Below, piece by piece: positions 13,082-25,356 of a DNA stretch of 32,116 nt (the first letter of the stretch is position 1; each line of letters begins with the position of its first letter). Origin of the DNA: Chthonomonadaceae bacterium. Its GTDB lineage: Bacteria > Armatimonadota > Chthonomonadetes > Chthonomonadales > Chthonomonadaceae. The position numbers and the translations under genes are program-made. The notes under the pieces are model-generated. The model searched no databases and had not been told where the DNA came from. It worked only from the letters and a program-made list of their open reading frames with translations. The DNA lies in the NCBI GenBank assembly GCA_027450145.1, contig DAIDKH010000050.1:1-32116 (forward strand), given 5' to 3'.

Positions 13082-13111
13082 TTGGATGAATTTGGGCGCA
13101 AATTGTAACAT
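13082..13111 (+). promoter_or_regulatory. Predicted promoter of the nucleoside hydrolase operon
   Basis: TTGGAT (13082-13087), 18-base spacer, TAACAT (13106-13111). The start site would be near 13118, leaving a leader of about 44 bases. AGGAGG at 13151-13156 then serves the GTG at 13162. Confidence 0.45.
13089..13104. promoter_or_regulatory. LacI-style palindromic operator candidate
   Basis: AATTTGGGCGCAAATT is a 16-base palindrome with a single mismatched pair and a GC centre. It fills the spacer of the predicted promoter. Short palindromes with a central GC or CG step are typical of LacI-family sites, and a LacI-family gene lies at 23363. Confidence 0.45.
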
Positions 13112-13161
13112 GTGGAGGAAACAGTACCAAGCCTGTAGAAATACTTGATTAGGAGGTAAAT

Positions 13162-14067
13162 GTGTCACTAATACCTGTGCTGCTCGACACGGATATAGGC
13201 TCGGATATTGACGACGCCCTTGCTCTCGCCTACCTGTTGCGGCACCCGGAGTGTCACTTAACAGGCGTAACAACTGTAAGTGGCGAGCCATGTAAGCGAG
13301 CCGCGCTTGTACGCTGGCTGTGCACCGTTGCTGGCAGGCCCGAAGTACCTGTTTACTGTGGCACAGAGCCTCCGTTATTGGGTACTCAGAGGCAACCACT
13401 TGCGCACCAACACAGTGCTATTCCTGCCGAGTTTGCTGAGACGCGCCACCCTGAATCCCACGCAGTAGATTTTATGCGTGACGAGATTACCAAGCATCCT
13501 GGCGAAGTGACACTTCTCGCCATTGGCCCGCTAACTAACGTCGGCCTGCTCTTCGCAACATATCCCTTCATTCCGCAATTGCTGCGATCGCTTGTTATTA
13601 TGGGTGGTGACTTCCGCCCCAACTACGATGACTCCATAGAGGAATGGAACATTAAGTGTGATCCAGCGGCTGCCTCAATTGTTCTCGCTCGTGTAGCGTC
13701 GCCCTTCCTTGCAGTAGGGCTGAATGTGACGACACGGTGCCGGCTTACGATGACGGCGATGGACGCACTTCTAAGCGGAAAAGATCCCCTTAAGGCTGCA
13801 GTAAACGCGATGGCAAGGGTTTGGTATGACTCCGCCTCAGAGGTGACTTTTCACGATCCTTTAGCAGCTGCTCTCATCTTTCAGCCGAACCTCTGCGAAA
13901 CTGTCTCGACTTCATTACATGTCGACATATGCTCCGCAGACAGCCCAGGCGCGACTATTGAAATTACAGACGATACGGCTAAACCGCATCAAATCGCCAC
14001 TAATGTCGACACGCAGCAATTCTTCACCCATTACAGCTCTGTTCTAGAAACCAGGCACATACCGTAA
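13162..14067 (+). CDS. Inosine-uridine preferring nucleoside hydrolase family protein
   Basis: A 301-residue cytoplasmic enzyme of the IUNH fold, which splits the N-glycosidic bond of nucleosides or related ribosides to base and sugar. The calcium and ribose site starts with DTDIGSDIDDALALAY (residues 9-24), an extended form of the usual DTDPGxDDA. Further family motifs are AIGPLTNVG, VIMGGDF, EEWNIKCDPAAA and the late HDPLAAAL. GTG is the start, with AGGAGG 5 bases upstream. It is the first gene of a five-gene set and lies 9 bases before the next. The substrate cannot be read from the sequence; a modified riboside is as likely as a normal nucleoside. Confidence 0.88.
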   Translation: MSLIPVLLDTDIGSDIDDALALAYLLRHPECHLTGVTTVSGEPCKRAALVRWLCTVAGRPEVPVYCGTEPPLLGTQRQPLAHQHSAIPAEFAETRHPESHAVDFMRDEITKHPGEVTLLAIGPLTNVGLLFATYPFIPQLLRSLVIMGGDFRPNYDDSIEEWNIKCDPAAASIVLARVASPFLAVGLNVTTRCRLTMTAMDALLSGKDPLKAAVNAMARVWYDSASEVTFHDPLAAALIFQPNLCETVSTSLHVDICSADSPGATIEITDDTAKPHQIATNVDTQQFFTHYSSVLETRHIP

Positions 14068-14076
14068 GGAGAGTAG

Positions 14077-15342
14077 ATGAAACGCACAATTGTTCCAATT
14101 TTGGCGCTGGCAGGCGCGCTTGCAGCGGCCGGAGTCAGCGCCCATGCCCAGGGATCCTTTTACCTAAAAAATGGAGACCGGGTGGTGTTTTATGGTGACA
14201 GTATCACCGAGCAGCACCTTTATACTAACTGGGTAGAAGATTATGTGGTAACTCGGTTTCCAAATCTTCGAGTGGACTTCGTAAACGCCGGTGTTGGCGG
14301 TGACAAAGTATCTGGTGGATGGGCAGGCAATATTGACGTGAGACTTAAGCGCGATCTCATCCCGTTTAAGCCAACCGTTGTAACATGTATGCTGGGTATG
14401 AACGATGCGGCTTATCGACCATACGATCAGGGAATCTTCGATGCGTATGCCACAGGCTATAAAAACATTCTGAAGATGGTTAAGGCGAGTTTACCGGACG
14501 TCCGTTGGACGCTGATAGAACCATCTCCCTATGATGACATCACCCAGCCGTTAAATTTCCCAGGCGGTTATAACGCGGTACTTTTGAAATACGCAGCGTA
14601 CGTAAGGAAGCTGGCAGCCAGCACAGGATCCCTGGATTCGGATTTCAACCACCCTATGACAGAAATGCTCATAAAGGCCAAGGCGGCGGATCCATCGCTC
14701 GCGCAAAAGATCATCCCTGGTCGCGTTCACCCGTCACCCGCCGGGCACCTCATCATGGCGGAGGCTCTTCTTAACACCTGGCACGCGCCATCGCTCGTAG
14801 CATCGGCAACAATTGACGCCTCCACCGGCAAGGTAACATCCGAGGCGAATACCAGCATTTCGAATGTTGCAACATCCAATGGAGTACTTAGTTGGACAGA
14901 GACAGATAAATCGCTGCCGTTTCCGCTCGACCTGAAGGACCCAGTTACAAAGCTGGTTCTTTCTAGTTCCAACTTTGTGCAGAAGCTGGACGAAGAACCT
15001 CTCACTGTTACCGGGCTTACCGCAGCACACTACGCCTTGGATATTGATGGTACTACCGTTGGCACATTTACCCCGGATCAACTCAGTTCCGGAGTTAATC
15101 TTGCTCTGCTTTCCACTCCCATGTTAAACCAGGCGCTGGCGGTCAACCAACTTACAACCGACCATAGCAATGTGCACATGACCATGTGGCGGTCTATCGA
15201 GATGCCCCTGGCTTATGATAAATCCCCCGCACTTACAAATGCCATAGACAGCCTGAACGCACTTGATTTTCAACTACAGGCGCGCCGACGACAGGAAGCT
15301 GAGCCCCATCCTCACAAATACACACTGACACCCGTAGCGTAA
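14077..15342 (+). CDS. Secreted SGNH/GDSL hydrolase
   Basis: A 421-residue exported esterase-like enzyme. Residues 1-24 are a signal peptide ending AHAQ. Block I is GDSIT (Ser42 nucleophile), block II NAGVGGDK (Gly72), block III GMND (Asn109), and block V GRVHPSPAGH (His218). The Asp usually three residues before this His is Gly215 here. The catalytic domain covers about residues 27-235; the remaining 185 residues look beta-rich and may bind carbohydrate or help packing. Relatives include carbohydrate acetyl esterases and rhamnogalacturonan acetylesterases. An AAGGAGAG ribosome site precedes the ATG. Its neighbours suggest action on an acylated external substrate. Confidence 0.88.
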   Translation: MKRTIVPILALAGALAAAGVSAHAQGSFYLKNGDRVVFYGDSITEQHLYTNWVEDYVVTRFPNLRVDFVNAGVGGDKVSGGWAGNIDVRLKRDLIPFKPTVVTCMLGMNDAAYRPYDQGIFDAYATGYKNILKMVKASLPDVRWTLIEPSPYDDITQPLNFPGGYNAVLLKYAAYVRKLAASTGSLDSDFNHPMTEMLIKAKAADPSLAQKIIPGRVHPSPAGHLIMAEALLNTWHAPSLVASATIDASTGKVTSEANTSISNVATSNGVLSWTETDKSLPFPLDLKDPVTKLVLSSSNFVQKLDEEPLTVTGLTAAHYALDIDGTTVGTFTPDQLSSGVNLALLSTPMLNQALAVNQLTTDHSNVHMTMWRSIEMPLAYDKSPALTNAIDSLNALDFQLQARRRQEAEPHPHKYTLTPVA

Positions 15343-15360
15343 AATAAACAGGAGCCGTGC

Positions 15361-17166
15361 ATGCCAATTGTTACACCGCTGAAGAAGGCGTTTCAAATTA
15401 GCATGTGCGGCTTTATGCTGCTCGCGGGGGGATGCAAAGGCGGATACCGCGCGATGCCCGTCGCCGTTCATCTCAACTCTTCTGAGATGAGAGACTTCCA
15501 ACACACCGACTACAACGGTAGGTGGGGCGGTGCGTTCGTCTGCTCAACCGTTGCAGATCCGCGAACATTCAACCCTATTACCACCCAAGAAACAACCAGC
15601 ATTGCCGCCTGGGGACCACTGTTTAGCGGTCTTCTAAGCCAGGATCCGTTTACTTTTCAGTTCACACCTGCGCTTGCTGCGAAGTATACCGAGTCGAAAG
15701 ATGGCAGGATCTGGACGTTTTACCTTCGTCACGGCATCCGCTGGTCAGACGGTTACCCACTCACGGCAGATGATGTCATATTCTCGCTTAACGTCATCTA
15801 CGACCCAAAAGTAATAGACTCCGCTCGATCATTACTTACCATCCATGGCAAGCCCTTCAAGTACCGAGAAATCAACAAGTACACGGTGCGTATTACCCTT
15901 CCAGCACCCGTTGGAGCCTTTCTCTCCAACTTCGCCGCCGTAGCGGTAGTTCCAAAACACTGTCTTGAAGCCGCATGGAAAGCGGGCAAGTTTAACTCTG
16001 CCTGGGGAGTAAATACACCGCCGTCACAAATTGTAGGCGATGGTCCATTCAAAATGGTCGATTACGAACCCGGCCAGTCAATTACCTACGTGCGCAACCC
16101 TTACTACTGGCGCCTCGCGGCCAATGGCAGACAACTGCCGTTTTTGGACGGTGGTGTCACAGAAATTGTGCCGGATGTAAATACAGAGGTTTTGAAATTT
16201 CTGGCTCGCGAGACAGATTGGGTGAACCTGAGGCCCGAGGATTGGGACGTAATGCAGCAACAGGCCCGAACTGGAAACTACAAGCTAATGAACCTGGGCC
16301 CGGGTTGGGGCGTTTCGTATATAAGCTTCAACCTCAATCCTCCTGCTTCCGCAGTACCGCAGTGGAAAATAAAGCTATTTCAAAATCGCGTTTTTCGTCA
16401 GGCCATTTCCTACGCCATTAATCGGCAATTGATATGCTCCACCGTATTTCGCGGGTTTGCTCAGCCGCTCTGGTCCTACATCAGTCCGGCAAATAAAGTG
16501 TTTTACAACCCAGGTGTTCCGCAGTACCAGTATAATCCTGCCCTTGCGGCAAAGCTGCTACGTTCTATAGGCCTCGTAAAACATGATGGCGTCCTTACCG
16601 ACAGGGCCGGTCATGCGGTAACGATAACCTTAATGCCGCCATCTGGAAACGGCAACCTTATCACAACGTGCAGTATAATCCAACAAGAACTCAAACCCTT
16701 AGGCATCAACATGACCGTTTCTCCACAGGACTTCAACGCCCTTGTCGGGAGAATGAGCGGCAGCCACAACTGGGAGAGCATCGCCTTAGGGTTCACCGGC
16801 GGGTTCAACCCGTACGACTCGGCAAACATTTGGCTTTCCAGTGGCAGCCTGCATGTGTGGAATCCCAATCAAACAAAACCAGCAACTCCTTGGGAGGCCG
16901 AGATCGACAAGATTTTTAATACTGCTCATACCACAGTGGAACGAAGCAAGCGAGTGGAGCTTTTCAAACGCTTTCAGAATATTGCCTCAACTGAACTGCC
17001 GCTCATTTATATCGTGGAACCCGATGTTTTAATTGGTGTGAAAAACAATGTAGGAAACGCACGGCCAAGCGCGCTGGGCAGTAGCATTTACAGCGGCTTC
17101 ATGTGGGAACTAGATCACATATACCTAAAATCGCAACAACCGCACGGGCTAACGACCCGTCGTTAG
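15361..17166 (+). CDS. ABC transporter substrate-binding lipoprotein, family 5
   Basis: A 601-residue peptide/opine/nickel-type (SBP_bac_5, DppA/OppA-like) binding protein. The N-terminus has a basic start, a hydrophobic stretch and LLAGGC with Cys25 as the likely lipidation site (the box is imperfect, Ala at -3). Family motifs include WTFYLRHGIRWSDGYPLTADD, GDGPFKMVDYEPGQSITYVRNPYYW, FRQAISYAINRQ and AAKLLRSIGL. AGGAG lies before the ATG. It sits 18 bases after the GDSL gene and 15 before the PhyH gene. No permease is encoded in the window; an OppF-type ATPase is at 24355. Ligands in this family range from peptides to oligosaccharides, so the ligand is unknown. Confidence 0.93.
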   Translation: MPIVTPLKKAFQISMCGFMLLAGGCKGGYRAMPVAVHLNSSEMRDFQHTDYNGRWGGAFVCSTVADPRTFNPITTQETTSIAAWGPLFSGLLSQDPFTFQFTPALAAKYTESKDGRIWTFYLRHGIRWSDGYPLTADDVIFSLNVIYDPKVIDSARSLLTIHGKPFKYREINKYTVRITLPAPVGAFLSNFAAVAVVPKHCLEAAWKAGKFNSAWGVNTPPSQIVGDGPFKMVDYEPGQSITYVRNPYYWRLAANGRQLPFLDGGVTEIVPDVNTEVLKFLARETDWVNLRPEDWDVMQQQARTGNYKLMNLGPGWGVSYISFNLNPPASAVPQWKIKLFQNRVFRQAISYAINRQLICSTVFRGFAQPLWSYISPANKVFYNPGVPQYQYNPALAAKLLRSIGLVKHDGVLTDRAGHAVTITLMPPSGNGNLITTCSIIQQELKPLGINMTVSPQDFNALVGRMSGSHNWESIALGFTGGFNPYDSANIWLSSGSLHVWNPNQTKPATPWEAEIDKIFNTAHTTVERSKRVELFKRFQNIASTELPLIYIVEPDVLIGVKNNVGNARPSALGSSIYSGFMWELDHIYLKSQQPHGLTTRR

Positions 17167-17181
17167 AGGGGTATCAGACAG

Positions 17182-18027
17182 ATGCTAAGCGAGCAGGATC
17201 ACAAGTTTTTTAGCGATAATGGCTACCTTATTGTACATAAAGCGGTGGCCGAAGACGACTGCAAAAAAGTGGTGGACGCCATTTTCTGGTTCCTAGAAAT
17301 GGACCCCAATGACCATAACGACTGGTATCGCGACCCCCTAAAGCCAGGCGGAATGATCGAAATGTACCAACATCAGGCAATGTGGAATAACAGGCAGAAT
17401 GAACGACTATACGAAGCCTTTTCCCAATTGCTTCACGAAACTAAATTGTGCGTAACGATAGACAGAGTTGGGATGAAGCCGCCTCGAAACCCACTTTACC
17501 CCGCGTATGACCACACGGGCTTTATTCATTGGGACATTGACACGAACAATTTACCGACCCAACTTGGATTGCAGGGAGTACTATGCCTGACTGACACCGA
17601 TGCAGATATGGGCGGTTTTCAGTGTATTCCTGGCTTTCACCGCAACTTGGAAGAGTGGATTTCCCAGCAACCGGCGGACCGTAACCCGCGGCATCCCGAT
17701 CTTAGCCGACTGCCTGATGGCATGAAGGTTACTGCAATTCCCGCGCAGGCTGGCGATCTGATTATATGGGACACGCGCCTTGCTCATGGTAATGGCCACA
17801 ATGTGTCGCGGAAGCCGAGGTTTTCGCAGTATATCTCTATGTTCCCCGCGAGTCGCCTTACCGATGAAAACCGATTGCACCGAATTCACTGCTGGAAACA
17901 TCGGCTGCCGCCAGGAGGAAGCGTCTTCCCTGGTGACCCTCGCGAATTCGAGCAGCATTTCGGTGAGACAGCTCACCTTACCCCGCTTGGTGAAAAGTTG
18001 CTGGGAAGTGCTCCTTGGCCCGCTTAG
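17182..18027 (+). CDS. Phytanoyl-CoA dioxygenase (PhyH) family protein
   Basis: A 281-residue non-haem iron(II), 2-oxoglutarate-dependent oxygenase. The iron triad is visible as His116-x-Asp118 (FIHWDID) and His202 (DTRLAHGNGHN), and Arg210 or Arg213 is placed to bind 2-oxoglutarate. The fold begins with FFSDNGYLIVHKAV, typical of PhyH. MGGFQCIPGFH and AGDLIIWD are further family hallmarks. No signal peptide is seen, so it is cytoplasmic. It lies 15 bases after the binding protein gene. PhyH relatives hydroxylate very varied small molecules, and several bacterial phyla carry them in large numbers in catabolic clusters; the substrate here is unknown. Confidence 0.92.
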   Translation: MLSEQDHKFFSDNGYLIVHKAVAEDDCKKVVDAIFWFLEMDPNDHNDWYRDPLKPGGMIEMYQHQAMWNNRQNERLYEAFSQLLHETKLCVTIDRVGMKPPRNPLYPAYDHTGFIHWDIDTNNLPTQLGLQGVLCLTDTDADMGGFQCIPGFHRNLEEWISQQPADRNPRHPDLSRLPDGMKVTAIPAQAGDLIIWDTRLAHGNGHNVSRKPRFSQYISMFPASRLTDENRLHRIHCWKHRLPPGGSVFPGDPREFEQHFGETAHLTPLGEKLLGSAPWPA

Positions 18028-18141
18028 AGCCAAAGCACACCCAATTAAGTACTGAAAGCAGTACCGATTTGAAATAACACGCGCTTGCGTGAGGCAGTAA
18101 CTATCGCGCAGCACGTTGATGGTACACAAGGAGATTGCTCT

Positions 18142-19467
18142 ATGTCCCAAGATAATTCGCGCCGGCGCTTTCTCGCACAATCTGCGGTCAGTGCAGCAGC
18201 AGGCCTTATAGCAGGTCAGGTAGATGCTGCGCCCCAACATGACATGCCATACACGTCTTCGTTAATGGCAGCGCTTAACGTTCATCAATTTGGCGCAAAG
18301 GCGGATGGTGTTACGGACGACACAGCGGCTATTCAGCGTGCGCTCGACAAGGCAGGAACGGCTGGAGGCGGCATTGTGGAACTACCCACTGGCCATTACG
18401 CTGTGAAGGGAACCCTGCAAGTGCCTGGCGGCGTGCTGCTGCAAGGCTCGTTTCGTGTACCTCCGTGCAGCCGTCATGATCAACACCCTCACCTGCATGG
18501 AACTGTTCTACTTGCGTTTGCCGGGCGTGGGAAGCCAGAATCCGCCCCATTTGTTCTCTTGAACGGGAATATGGCGGCAATACAGGGCGTAATCATCACT
18601 TACCCAGAATGGAAACGATCGGACGTACCTCCGGTACCCTATCCACCTGCCATTGCTGCACGCGAGAACACCGAAAATGTCTCAGTGCTCGATTGCTGTC
18701 TTCTCAACACTTATGAGGCCATACACTTGCAATCGTCAAGCCGTCATCTCATACGTAATGTCTACGCGTATCCCCACTATCGCGGACTGTACATCGACAA
18801 TTGCACGGATATTGGTCGCGTTGAAAACTGCCACTTCTGGCCATTCGGCGCTACTTACTATCCAGATGACCCATTTTCTAAGTGGGTTAACCTGAATGGG
18901 GTCGCATTCGAATTTGCGCGAACCGACTGGCAATACGTCTTCAATACGTTCTGTTTCGGCTATGGGGTTGGCTACAAATTTTCACAATCGAAGAATGGTG
19001 CGTGCAATGGTAATTTCCTTGGTATAGGATCGGACTCGTGTGAACGTGACATTCTGGTTGAGCAGGCACAACCTTACGGGCTGCTAATTACCAATGGTGA
19101 ATTTGTAGGCCGGTGGACCAGCAAGCACGCCACCTGCATTGAGATTATGGACGGTGCTGCGTCAAAGCTCAGCCTTACAAATTGCTCATTCTGGGGGCCA
19201 ATTCATAGGATTGTGTGGCAAAAGAGTGCCCAGATGCAATTTACGGCTAATGCTTGTCATTTTGTAGACTGGACCGACAATGCCATTCAAATTGATGCGG
19301 GCAGGGCGATAATTCAAGGGTGTACATTCATGCAGGATCGCAATGCGATTACAGTTGGCCCCAAAGCTACCTCTGTGCTGATAACCACCAACCAGGCGCC
19401 TGGTGGCCTCAAAGTAGACAACCATGCTGGTGCCCGCACCCAGATGGGCTTCAATGAACAGGTGTGA
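18142..19467 (+). CDS. Tat-exported right-handed beta-helix protein, pectate lyase superfamily
   Basis: A 441-residue protein with a twin-arginine signal (SRRRFLAQSA, residues 6-15). ATG at 18142 is preferred over an upstream in-frame start because an AAGGAG site precedes it and the Tat motif then sits at the N-terminus. The mature part opens with VHQFGAKADGVTDDTAAIQRALDKA and GGGIVELPTGHYAVKGTLQVP, the hallmark of the pectate lyase 3 / pectin lyase-like superfamily, and continues with beta-helix coils rich in Asn, Gly and Cys. This fold is used by polysaccharide lyases, glycosidases and epimerases; I see no motif that settles which. It is the last gene of the set, after a 114-base gap. Confidence 0.88.
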   Translation: MSQDNSRRRFLAQSAVSAAAGLIAGQVDAAPQHDMPYTSSLMAALNVHQFGAKADGVTDDTAAIQRALDKAGTAGGGIVELPTGHYAVKGTLQVPGGVLLQGSFRVPPCSRHDQHPHLHGTVLLAFAGRGKPESAPFVLLNGNMAAIQGVIITYPEWKRSDVPPVPYPPAIAARENTENVSVLDCCLLNTYEAIHLQSSSRHLIRNVYAYPHYRGLYIDNCTDIGRVENCHFWPFGATYYPDDPFSKWVNLNGVAFEFARTDWQYVFNTFCFGYGVGYKFSQSKNGACNGNFLGIGSDSCERDILVEQAQPYGLLITNGEFVGRWTSKHATCIEIMDGAASKLSLTNCSFWGPIHRIVWQKSAQMQFTANACHFVDWTDNAIQIDAGRAIIQGCTFMQDRNAITVGPKATSVLITTNQAPGGLKVDNHAGARTQMGFNEQV

Positions 19468-19637: not shown

Positions 19638-20885
19638 ATGGCACACAAAGTATACGGATCGTTTGAGAACATACCCCCCAGTATCCGACAACACAATCTC
19701 TGGGCACGAACGCTTAAGTTGAACCAAAACGGATGGGAATGGGATTTTAGTCTCACCAATGAGTTGGGACCGGTGTTTCCAGCTCTTGCTGACGACTTGA
19801 TGATAGAACTGTTGGGCATCGCTGTCAAAGATAGAGTGATCGACATTGGAGGCGGTGACGCCTGTTTCAGTAGGGCTAATGTTGTTACGGACGCGTTCAT
19901 AAACTCGAACGTGCACAGGAGCGGCCGGGTATTACGGCAACTTCAGGGGACCGCTACGCGATTTGAAGAATGTTTTGCCGAACAGCTCCCCTTTGCCGAT
20001 CAGGAGTTTGATTTCGCTTACTCGCGCTCGGTTTTCGAACACACAATAGATCCCGCTGCCGCTTGCAGCGAAATGATGCGCGTCGCACGACGTGGCTTTA
20101 TAGAAACACCCACACCGCTCGCCGAATATTTAGGAGGACACCCCACTCATAGGTGGATTGTCTACATCGAGAAGAGCAATAATAGCGAACCTGTACTCGT
20201 ATTTAAACGGAAGCCATTCGTGCGTGCGCCGTTTAGTTACCTACTACGACCGCTATTCTTTAACGATAATGATTTCCACTTTAGATGGGAATGGAAGTAC
20301 CGTAACGTTGTCACCACGCAATTTGCCTGGGAGGGTAGGTTTCGGTTTCGCATTGACGATGATCTCAAACCAGGGTACATGGATTATGATGTCCCTGAGG
20401 CAGCGGCAGCAGCACATCTGGATTGTGCGGTAAGCGCTATTCAGTATGGGAACGTTCCACTGGATGTAATCAAACCTGATATCGACGTGACTTTGGCGCT
20501 CACCCCGTTACATGCGGAAGCCTATAACGCCAAGGGCTGCATGCTGTTTTTCGCAGGCGAGAGAAACTCCGCGGTTGAGTGCTTTAACATGGCAACCCGC
20601 CTTGATCCTCGGGTCGATCTGTATCAACAAAATTTGGTAGCGGCAACATCATCGGTCGAAGCACCTGTTATTCGAGTGGTGGAAGATGCTTATGCGCTGC
20701 CAGAAATGAAGTCTCGGGACTTAATTGACTGCATGCTGGACGCGCACGATCTGGAGGTTGGTCTGGTACTACTTTTAAACGGGTTGATGGCGAGCGGATC
20801 GCCAAGAATTCGACACATCAAAGAAAGATTCACGGCAGTGAAAGCGCTATCGCAGCAACTCAATACCAAGCCGGCAGCCGCCTGA
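19638..20885 (+). CDS. SAM-dependent methyltransferase-like protein with TPR-like tail
   Basis: A 415-residue cytoplasmic protein. Residues about 60-160 are a class I methyltransferase core: the SAM-binding motif VIDIGGGDACFS (67-78), the acidic-strand stretch EQLPFADQEFDFAYSRSVFEH, and the post-motif strand MMRVARRGFIETPTP. Middle residues 165-255 are rich in Phe, Trp and Arg and match nothing I recognise. Residues about 285-335 (PLHAEAYNAKGCMLFFAGERNSAVECFNMATRLDP) look like a single tetratricopeptide repeat. A GTAGGTG site lies before the ATG. The target is unknown; TPR-fused methyltransferases often act in glycan or secondary-metabolite synthesis, but that is inference. Confidence 0.75.
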   Translation: MAHKVYGSFENIPPSIRQHNLWARTLKLNQNGWEWDFSLTNELGPVFPALADDLMIELLGIAVKDRVIDIGGGDACFSRANVVTDAFINSNVHRSGRVLRQLQGTATRFEECFAEQLPFADQEFDFAYSRSVFEHTIDPAAACSEMMRVARRGFIETPTPLAEYLGGHPTHRWIVYIEKSNNSEPVLVFKRKPFVRAPFSYLLRPLFFNDNDFHFRWEWKYRNVVTTQFAWEGRFRFRIDDDLKPGYMDYDVPEAAAAAHLDCAVSAIQYGNVPLDVIKPDIDVTLALTPLHAEAYNAKGCMLFFAGERNSAVECFNMATRLDPRVDLYQQNLVAATSSVEAPVIRVVEDAYALPEMKSRDLIDCMLDAHDLEVGLVLLLNGLMASGSPRIRHIKERFTAVKALSQQLNTKPAAA

Positions 20886-23362: not shown

Positions 23363-24358
23363 ATGCCTATAACAATTCAGGATATCGCGGACAACCTTAA
23401 CCTTCCATACTCTACGGTCGCTAATGTTCTTCAGGGGCGTAGCGACCTGGCGATCTCTCCTGCCACCCGTGAACAGGTTCTACAAATCGCACAGCAAATG
23501 GGCTATATAGACTCACCGTCCCAGTGTCAGCCTCGTAAGCCCACGGGCCACTTAGGGCTATGGATGAGCAGCATATACACGGCGTTTCACGCACAGATCA
23601 TTAACCACGTGGAAAATAACGCACGATCTGCAGGGTATCAGCTTATAGTCCGCTCATTGCAGCACGGTTTGAACGGCTCTGTACTTCCGGAACTAAATAT
23701 CGACGGATGTCTCGCCTTTGAATGCTCCGGGCAAGTCATGGCACTTGAGACAAATACTCAATTCAACAGCCTGCCAACCGTGTGTATGGGTGGTGTTAAT
23801 TGCCATGTACCAAGTCTTGATTGCGTCGAGATTGATCTAGCCACCGGCACACTCAAGGCATTGGCACACCTCGCAGCAGTTGGCTGCAGGGCAATCGCGT
23901 ACCTCGGCCCAAATATGATCGATAACCGCCTATCGGCCTACTTCCAATTTGCCGACGACATTCGACAGGAACCAATTACCATACTAACCCCCACACAAAG
24001 TAAGCAGCAGGCACGGCAGGCAGTATGTGAATTCGCAGGCCGAGGCAGGCCATTCGATGGCGTCTATTGTTTCAATGACGATATGGCAATAGCCTGTGTC
24101 GCTGGACTTCGTGACGCGGGTCTCAGCGTACCGCGTGACGTTGCCGTCGTGGGATGTGATGGGATTGAGGAAGCCGGCCTAAGTGATCCTCCTATCACCT
24201 CGCTTGCTATGCCGGTCGACGAGATGTGCCGGATCGCCATATCACTGCTTCATGACCGGATTGTAGATAGCTCGATTGCACCCCGACACCGTCAACTGAG
24301 TCCGTACCTCGTGCTTCGCGATAGCTCGAATAGAACGGTCGAACAACCTACCTTATGA
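23363..24358 (+). CDS. LacI-family transcriptional regulator
   Basis: A 331-residue repressor-type regulator. Residues 4-25 (TIQDIADNLNLPYSTVANVLQG) are the LacI helix-turn-helix, followed by the hinge region and a periplasmic-binding-protein-like ligand domain (about 62-320) with FDGVYCFNDDMAIACVAGLRDAGLSVPRDVAVVGCDG, the usual family hallmark. The ligand is probably a sugar or nucleoside-like molecule, which cannot be fixed from sequence. No clear ribosome site precedes the ATG. The stop codon overlaps the ATG of the ABC ATPase (ATGA), so the regulator and a transport ATPase are made together. A candidate operator is at 13089. Confidence 0.93.
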   Translation: MPITIQDIADNLNLPYSTVANVLQGRSDLAISPATREQVLQIAQQMGYIDSPSQCQPRKPTGHLGLWMSSIYTAFHAQIINHVENNARSAGYQLIVRSLQHGLNGSVLPELNIDGCLAFECSGQVMALETNTQFNSLPTVCMGGVNCHVPSLDCVEIDLATGTLKALAHLAAVGCRAIAYLGPNMIDNRLSAYFQFADDIRQEPITILTPTQSKQQARQAVCEFAGRGRPFDGVYCFNDDMAIACVAGLRDAGLSVPRDVAVVGCDGIEEAGLSDPPITSLAMPVDEMCRIAISLLHDRIVDSSIAPRHRQLSPYLVLRDSSNRTVEQPTL

Positions 24359-25356
24359 TTGACAATACTCCTCGCCCGATCAATGGTCAACCGATATTGG
24401 AGGTCTGCGGCCTTAAAAAATATTTCCCGATTTCGCGCACGCAAGGATTACGTACGACGATGCTCACGGTTAAAGCTGTCGATGGCATCGATCTATCGGT
24501 TTATCCTGGCGAAACGGTTGCACTCGTTGGCGAGAGTGGCTGCGGTAAAACGACTGTAGCACGTTGCATTTTGCGGTTAACTCGCCCTACAGCAGGCTCA
24601 ATAAAGCTGTTGGGGCGTGATTTTCTAGCTCTTCGTGGCGAGGAATTTCGCCAGTTGCGGCAACATGCCAGCCAGGTTTTCCAGGATCCCTTTGCCGCAC
24701 TAAACCCACGAATGCAAATTGGTTCTTCCGTTATGGAGCCGATGTCGGCTAGGGGTTCGATCTCGAAGCAGGACCGAAATGCTGCAGTAAAGCAGCTGTT
24801 ATTGGATGTTGGATTGCCCGCTGATGCCATAAACCGGTTTCCCCACGAGTTTTCAGGCGGGCAGCGCCAGCGCATCGGCATCGCAAGAGCCATTGCTGGA
24901 GCCCCGGAACTCCTCATCCTTGACGAACCGACCTCTGCGTTAGATGTTTCGGTACGGGCACAGATTCTCAACTTATTGGCAGACATTCAGGAGACTAGAG
25001 GCATTAGCTACCTTCTCATAGCTCATGACCTTTCGGTAGTAAGGCATGCGGCCCACAGGGTTGCCGTGATGTACCTAGGTCGTATCGTGGAGTTTGGCAG
25101 CGTAGACGACGTGTTTTTAAAGCCGGCGCACCCTTACACCGTAGCGTTGCTCGCCGCTGTACCTCGTCCTGAACCCCAGGCTCAAAAAGTGCGGCCTGTT
25201 CTAGCAGGTGAACCACCGTCACCCATACAAATACCTCGCGGTTGCCGATTTTGCCCCAGATGTCCGCGTGCTCAAGAAATCTGTATGCAGGAGGAACCAA
25301 GATTCGCCGCTACAAATAGCCTTAATCACCAAACAGCCTGTCATTTTCCCCTATAA
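24355..25356 (+). CDS. Oligopeptide/dipeptide-type ABC transporter ATP-binding protein (OppF/DppF-like)
   Basis: A 333-residue ATPase that would power import by a family-5 type transporter. Walker A GESGCGKT (59-66), Q-loop Gln110, signature FSGGQRQR (166-173), Walker B LLILDE (186-191) and H-loop His224 are all intact. The C-terminal extension (HPYTVALLAAVPRP, then CRFCPRCPRAQEIC) is the oligo_HPY domain with its cysteines, which in relatives can carry an iron-sulfur cluster. Its ATG overlaps the LacI-type stop codon. The normal partners (OppD-like ATPase, two permeases, binding protein) are not adjacent; the only binding protein in the window is at 15361. Confidence 0.93.
   Translation: MIDNTPRPINGQPILEVCGLKKYFPISRTQGLRTTMLTVKAVDGIDLSVYPGETVALVGESGCGKTTVARCILRLTRPTAGSIKLLGRDFLALRGEEFRQLRQHASQVFQDPFAALNPRMQIGSSVMEPMSARGSISKQDRNAAVKQLLLDVGLPADAINRFPHEFSGGQRQRIGIARAIAGAPELLILDEPTSALDVSVRAQILNLLADIQETRGISYLLIAHDLSVVRHAAHRVAVMYLGRIVEFGSVDDVFLKPAHPYTVALLAAVPRPEPQAQKVRPVLAGEPPSPIQIPRGCRFCPRCPRAQEICMQEEPRFAATNSLNHQTACHFPL

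Follow-up and report, generated by a model that had tools for sequence, protein, structure and literature searches.

A lineage-restricted gene set in Chthonomonadaceae includes a solute-binding protein that most likely works with a dispersed Opp/Dpp-type importer

Five adjacent genes in a Chthonomonadaceae genome encode a nucleoside hydrolase (NH), an SGNH/GDSL hydrolase, a family-5 solute-binding lipoprotein (SBP), a PhyH-family dioxygenase and a right-handed beta-helix protein (BH), and we lean, with some confidence, toward reading them as a lineage-specific, probably shuffled and co-transcribed scavenging set of known families whose products would act in parallel and not as one pathway. The SBP most likely serves as the binding lipoprotein of an Opp/Dpp-type importer, the remaining genes of which are dispersed over the genome. 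The Chthonomonadaceae (Armatimonadota) are a little-known family of soil and hot-spring bacteria. The window, by which we mean the whole stretch of 32,116 nucleotides that was analyzed, is contig C50 of a 4.14-Mb genome that is 97% complete (Table 1).

Table 1. Features of the window, with the importer genes found elsewhere in the same genome.
Feature	Position	Strand	Evidence and remarks
Nucleoside hydrolase (NH)	13162..14067	+	IU_nuc_hydro E 1.4e-57 (Pfam); GTG start; predicted cytoplasmic
SGNH/GDSL hydrolase	14077..15342	+	Lipase_GDSL_2 E 2.2e-20 (Pfam); signal peptide and C-terminal domain; predicted secreted
Family-5 solute-binding lipoprotein (SBP)	15361..17166	+	SBP_bac_5 E 1.6e-80 (Pfam)
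PhyH-family Fe(II)/2-oxoglutarate dioxygenase	17182..18027	+	PhyH E 1.3e-12 (Pfam)
Right-handed beta-helix protein (BH)	18142..19467	+	Pect-lyase_RHGA_epim E 2.1e-14; pectate-lyase-like N-terminus
Methyltransferase-like gene	19638..20885	+	170 bases 3' of BH; candidate sixth gene
DtxR-type operator-like inverted repeat TTTAGCCTAATCTAAA	13007..13022	.	Between dtxR-feoA-feoB and NH
Dispersed Opp importer genes, three contigs (nuoF, zwf, rpsB neighbors)	L112:7432-9731, L226:6744-8821, L227:7696-9808		

All five reading frames, spanning 13162-19467 on the plus strand, are open and full length. As an earlier note on this DNA had described, they are co-directional with gaps of exactly 9, 18, 15 and 114 bases, and the five family assignments made there match the Pfam results. 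In the sister genome (G120) the corresponding gaps are 9, 24, 13 and 116 bases, and the short gaps and their Shine-Dalgarno sequences are preserved between the two. Amino acid identity across the five proteins is 77–89%, with dN of 0.07–0.15; dS is saturated, at about 2.1 for NH, and could not be calculated for the other four. Given these dN values against a saturated dS, we consider the genes to be real and constrained, and the comparison of sequences indicates that they are under strong purifying selection. The conserved start of BH is the ATG at 18142 (MSQDNSRRRFL); the ORF tool picks TTG 18085. A Shine-Dalgarno-like AAGGAG 5' of BH is conserved, the remainder of the 114-base spacer is not, and no terminator was found on the plus strand between PhyH and BH (fold z -1.36). 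Spacing and Shine-Dalgarno conservation together suggest that the five genes are probably co-transcribed. The methyltransferase-like gene, which is kept in the genus and diverges fast (63% amino acid identity as against 77–89% for the five), is a possible sixth member of the set.

The earlier note had given the first gene a promoter of its own, a claim that found no backing in a sigma-70 consensus scan of the plus strand between 12800 and 13162, which returned no site and, overall, fewer sites than in shuffles. The best-conserved upstream element common to the window and the second genus is the DtxR-type box TTTAGCCTAATCTAAA, the sole exact copy of this sequence in the genome. The box is nearer to the divergent dtxR-feo genes than to NH and probably serves them; iron control of the NH operon was considered and rejected, since the box lies on the feo side and is not assignable to an NH promoter. 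An Rfam search of the window matched no riboswitch and no structured RNA of another kind.

The linkage of these genes does not come down to chance in a single genome; it truly recurs, though within a narrow range. The sister genome carries all five in this order, and in a third genome of the window's genus (G171) they are found across two contigs, as NH-GDSL and SBP-PhyH-BH. In a second genus (G007), NH-GDSL-SBP-PhyH keep this order beside the same feo genes, and no relative of BH is detectable in the genome; a third genus (G108) keeps GDSL-SBP-PhyH as a block away from feo, with no NH and with a BH relative on another contig. The core order is kept across the three genera at 54–71% identity. 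The view in the earlier note of the genes as one system implied recurrence in relatives, and this part stood, with five genes in G120, four in G007 and three in G108, but the full set proved to be confined to the window's genus. Linkage of BH to the set is likewise seen in that genus only, the gene being unlinked or absent in every relative outside it. In the rest of the family PhyH is mostly alone (in one genus 3' of an SSF symporter), NH orthologues are unlinked, and in several other genera the GDSL orthologue lies 3' of an accC-like gene (Pfam-confirmed in G126; judged from the order and length of the genes in G057, G075 and G022). Beyond the Chthonomonadaceae no four- or three-gene set was seen: NH, GDSL or a close SBP relative is near PhyH at none of 57 non-Armatimonadota loci, and a distant family-5 SBP (26% identity) is near it at one of them. 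A literature search for the gene combination returned no paper in which as many as three of four terms occurred together.

Mere shuffling would not readily account for GDSL-SBP-PhyH (in one case with NH) holding its order in three genera at this level of divergence, which is a difficulty for the set that we prefer. The survival of GDSL-SBP-PhyH away from feo in G108 argues against plain juxtaposition, in which rearrangement would have made neighbors of genes that share neither promoter nor function, their order being a matter of common descent of the segment. Gaps of 9–24 bases with Shine-Dalgarno sequences, as are typical of co-transcribed genes, argue against it too, and tight spacing together with retention away from feo points to some shared benefit. 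We regard such juxtaposition as improbable, even though the flanking feo genes are also syntenic in the second genus, the PhyH-BH spacer is unconserved, no consensus promoter precedes NH, and Opp genes elsewhere in the genome adjoin nuoF, zwf and rpsB.

These Opp genes bear directly on the SBP, whose leader ends LLAGGC and whose SBP_bac_5 domain is predicted to lie in an exported lipoprotein. Its clade was found in 10 of the 291 Armatimonadota genomes searched. SBP-permease operons exist in G126, G155, G019 and G045; the SBP directly precedes DppB, DppC and two ATPases in G126 and G155, and two genomes of family f7 have SBP-DppB-DppC. The five proteins of an intact SBP operon were compared with those Opp components that were found in the genome of the window. 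The best match to the SBP was on C50 (45%), that to DppB on C19 beside nuoF (61%), those to DppC (50%) and one ATPase (61%) on C69 beside zwf (glucose-6-phosphate dehydrogenase), and that to the other ATPase on C76 next to rpsB (59%), all of them scoring above every paralogue. Cognate DppB, DppC and oligo_HPY ATPases are encoded in the window genome, away from the SBP locus, and DppB of the third genus also adjoins a protein whose start matches the NuoF beside the C19 DppB. An OppF-type ATPase at 24355 was considered as the ATPase of the SBP and set aside, as those on C69 and C76 match the intact operon better. At 23363-25356 the window carries a LacI-family regulator and then an orphan Opp-type ATPase, an arrangement conserved in the sister genome.

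Of 17 family genomes, 7 (from 4 of 11 genera) have the SBP, and precisely these 7 have a matching DppC (at least 50% identity), a coincidence with a chance of 1 in 330 if genera were independent, which they are not fully, the count being drawn from incomplete and phylogenetically non-independent MAGs. PhyH is present in 14 of the 17 and absent from the SBP-bearing G126 and G155; PhyH is lacking in half of the SBP genomes (5/10), and the SBP in most of those with PhyH. Because the SBP is co-inherited with the matching DppC, and independently of PhyH, we think that it works with the dispersed importer. The position of DppA Asp408, the residue that anchors the ligand amino-terminus, is Gly in all SBP-clade members examined, and for this reason we do not claim a classical peptide ligand.

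The same pattern of inheritance weighs on a single capture-and-process path of the kind that the earlier note had drawn, in which GDSL and BH act outside, the SBP imports, and PhyH and NH finish the processing of an acylated riboside or glycan-like substrate. The predicted cellular locations fit such a path, as do the four-gene core shared by two genera and the three genes kept together in another, but the SBP follows the dispersed DppC and is not co-inherited with PhyH, BH is linked in one genus (being absent from G007 and unlinked elsewhere), and NH is missing from one of the three genera (G108). Elsewhere in the family NH and GDSL orthologues are unlinked, and the surroundings of PhyH at the 57 loci in other phyla likewise lack the proposed partners. 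We consider this path unlikely.

The PhyH protein can be assigned with confidence, from its sequence and predicted structure, to the Fe(II)/2-oxoglutarate (2OG) dioxygenases: H116, D118, H202 and R213 (iron triad and 2OG Arg) are invariant in 23 homologues, the predicted model has a pLDDT of 95.7, and PDB matches support the DSBH fold. In the fold comparison the matches were DUF1479 proteins and a large number of 2OG oxygenases, at 13–21% identity, which fixes no substrate. By profile the protein is nearest to EctD (E 2.5e-8), the nearest solved sequence; PHYHD1 matches at E 0.11 only and ranks 42 in the fold search (TM 0.54), and by these comparisons sequence and fold do not place the window PhyH specifically with PHYHD1. 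Ectoine hydroxylase was rejected as an identity (NCBIfam score 29.5 vs a cut-off of 336.5). Sugar-acid-type genes (enolase-type dehydratase, UxuA, HpcH aldolase, Gfo/Idh, GH2, PfkB) lie within 4 kb of PhyH at 23 of the 57 non-Armatimonadota loci, with 9 UxuA-type genes near PhyH vs 1 far from it and 7 HpcH-type genes vs 0, many of the loci being interrelated. Since UxuA- and HpcH-type genes concentrate near PhyH in other phyla, gene context favors a sugar-like substrate. At L100 and a matching cluster, L087, the PhyH relative stands beside a dipeptide-epimerase-like enolase-superfamily gene with DUF1611 nearby, and at L101 PhyH relatives stand beside galactonate-dehydratase-like enolase-superfamily genes.

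The catalytic motifs of NH are intact (DTDIGSDIDDA, WNIxCD and FHDPL, which include the Asp cluster DTDxGxDxDD and HDP). An NH homologue in G022 (L114:8309-9364) carries an N-terminal twin-arginine-like leader; the window NH is predicted to be cytoplasmic. The GDSL protein has the catalytic Ser, Gly, Asn and His, with Gly in place of the DxxH Asp. The triad thus varies within the clade: this position is Gly in G000, G120 and G108 but Asp in G171 and G007. BH has a twin-arginine leader (SRRRFLA).

The neighborhood of PhyH and NH acquires a further interest from recent enzymology. Free 2'-O-methyl nucleosides are demethylated by PHYHD1 and by PhyH enzymes of bacteria, an activity first reported in 2025; the active bacterial demethylases come from several groups, Poribacteria among them, and 2'-O-methyl nucleosides can also be cleaved directly by some NHs (PMC12709175). 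Salvage of such nucleosides, with uptake by the importer, demethylation by PhyH (releasing formaldehyde), cleavage by NH, and GDSL and BH as passengers, would accord with this activity and with PhyH and NH sharing an operon-like cluster in two genera, but we give it little chance, given the profile proximity of PhyH to EctD and its distance from PHYHD1, the occurrence of NH near PhyH in one lineage only, the sugar-acid clusters around PhyH in other phyla, and the fact that a demethylase is unneeded if NHs can cleave 2'-O-methyl nucleosides directly. Nevertheless, the demethylase activity makes the PhyH-NH neighborhood worth testing (PMC12709175). Were this reading true, it would provide a physiological context in bacteria for that activity, and a bacterial cluster joining 2'-O-methyl demethylase activity to nucleoside breakdown, of which none was found in the literature searched.

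We return to the parallel scavenging set that we prefer, which builds on what was observed of gene structure, protein families, the pattern of conservation, the dispersal of permease genes and co-occurrence. An NH-GDSL-SBP-PhyH core would have been assembled within the Chthonomonadaceae, with the Tat-dependent BH gene added in one genus. The SBP would capture a small organic ligand, probably without the classical free-amino-terminus anchor, and pass it to an Opp/Dpp permease encoded at three distant loci (DppB; DppC with an ATPase; the second ATPase). With locations and classes of chemistry predicted from the protein families, the exported GDSL and BH proteins may trim acylated or polyuronide-like material outside the cell, NH would free bases from nucleosides in the cytoplasm, and PhyH may oxidize a sugar-like or other small substrate using iron and 2-oxoglutarate. 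These functions would be expressed together and run in parallel, rather than being successive steps on one compound; co-transcription, the substrates and a shared purpose are all inferred here.

More generally, an operon-like line-up can mislead in the Chthonomonadaceae. In Chthonomonas calidirosea many functionally related genes are reported to be placed singly rather than in operons, histidine, tryptophan and purine biosynthesis being the examples named in the introduction of that work (PMC4959169). With the operons of Chthonomonas dispersed, and Opp genes placed here next to nuoF and rpsB, little about shared function can be concluded from adjacency; since the SBP is co-inherited with permease genes off its contig and not with its neighbors, function in this family is better read from co-occurrence across genomes.

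Comparison with known systems places each component. Like EctD, FJS and PHYHD1, the window PhyH has an HxD...H iron site and the 2OG Arg, but it shares 13–21% identity by fold and has its own conserved C-terminal LTPLG..LLG..W. Like the RihA/RihC-type nucleoside hydrolases, the window NH is a full-length IU_nuc_hydro protein with the catalytic motifs, although its scores fall far short of the RihA, RihC and UriH equivalog cut-offs. The SBP resembles the binding protein of E. coli DppABCDF in being an SBP_bac_5 lipoprotein with relatives that immediately precede the genes for DppB, DppC and two ATPases (G126 and G155), whereas in the window genome the transporter genes are spread over four contigs and the Asp408 position is Gly. 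The closest parallel to this arrangement comes from the same family, in the scattered related genes of C. calidirosea T49; there histidine, tryptophan and purine genes are named (PMC4959169), whereas the case described here, with gene families that are themselves known, is that of a dispersed Opp importer.
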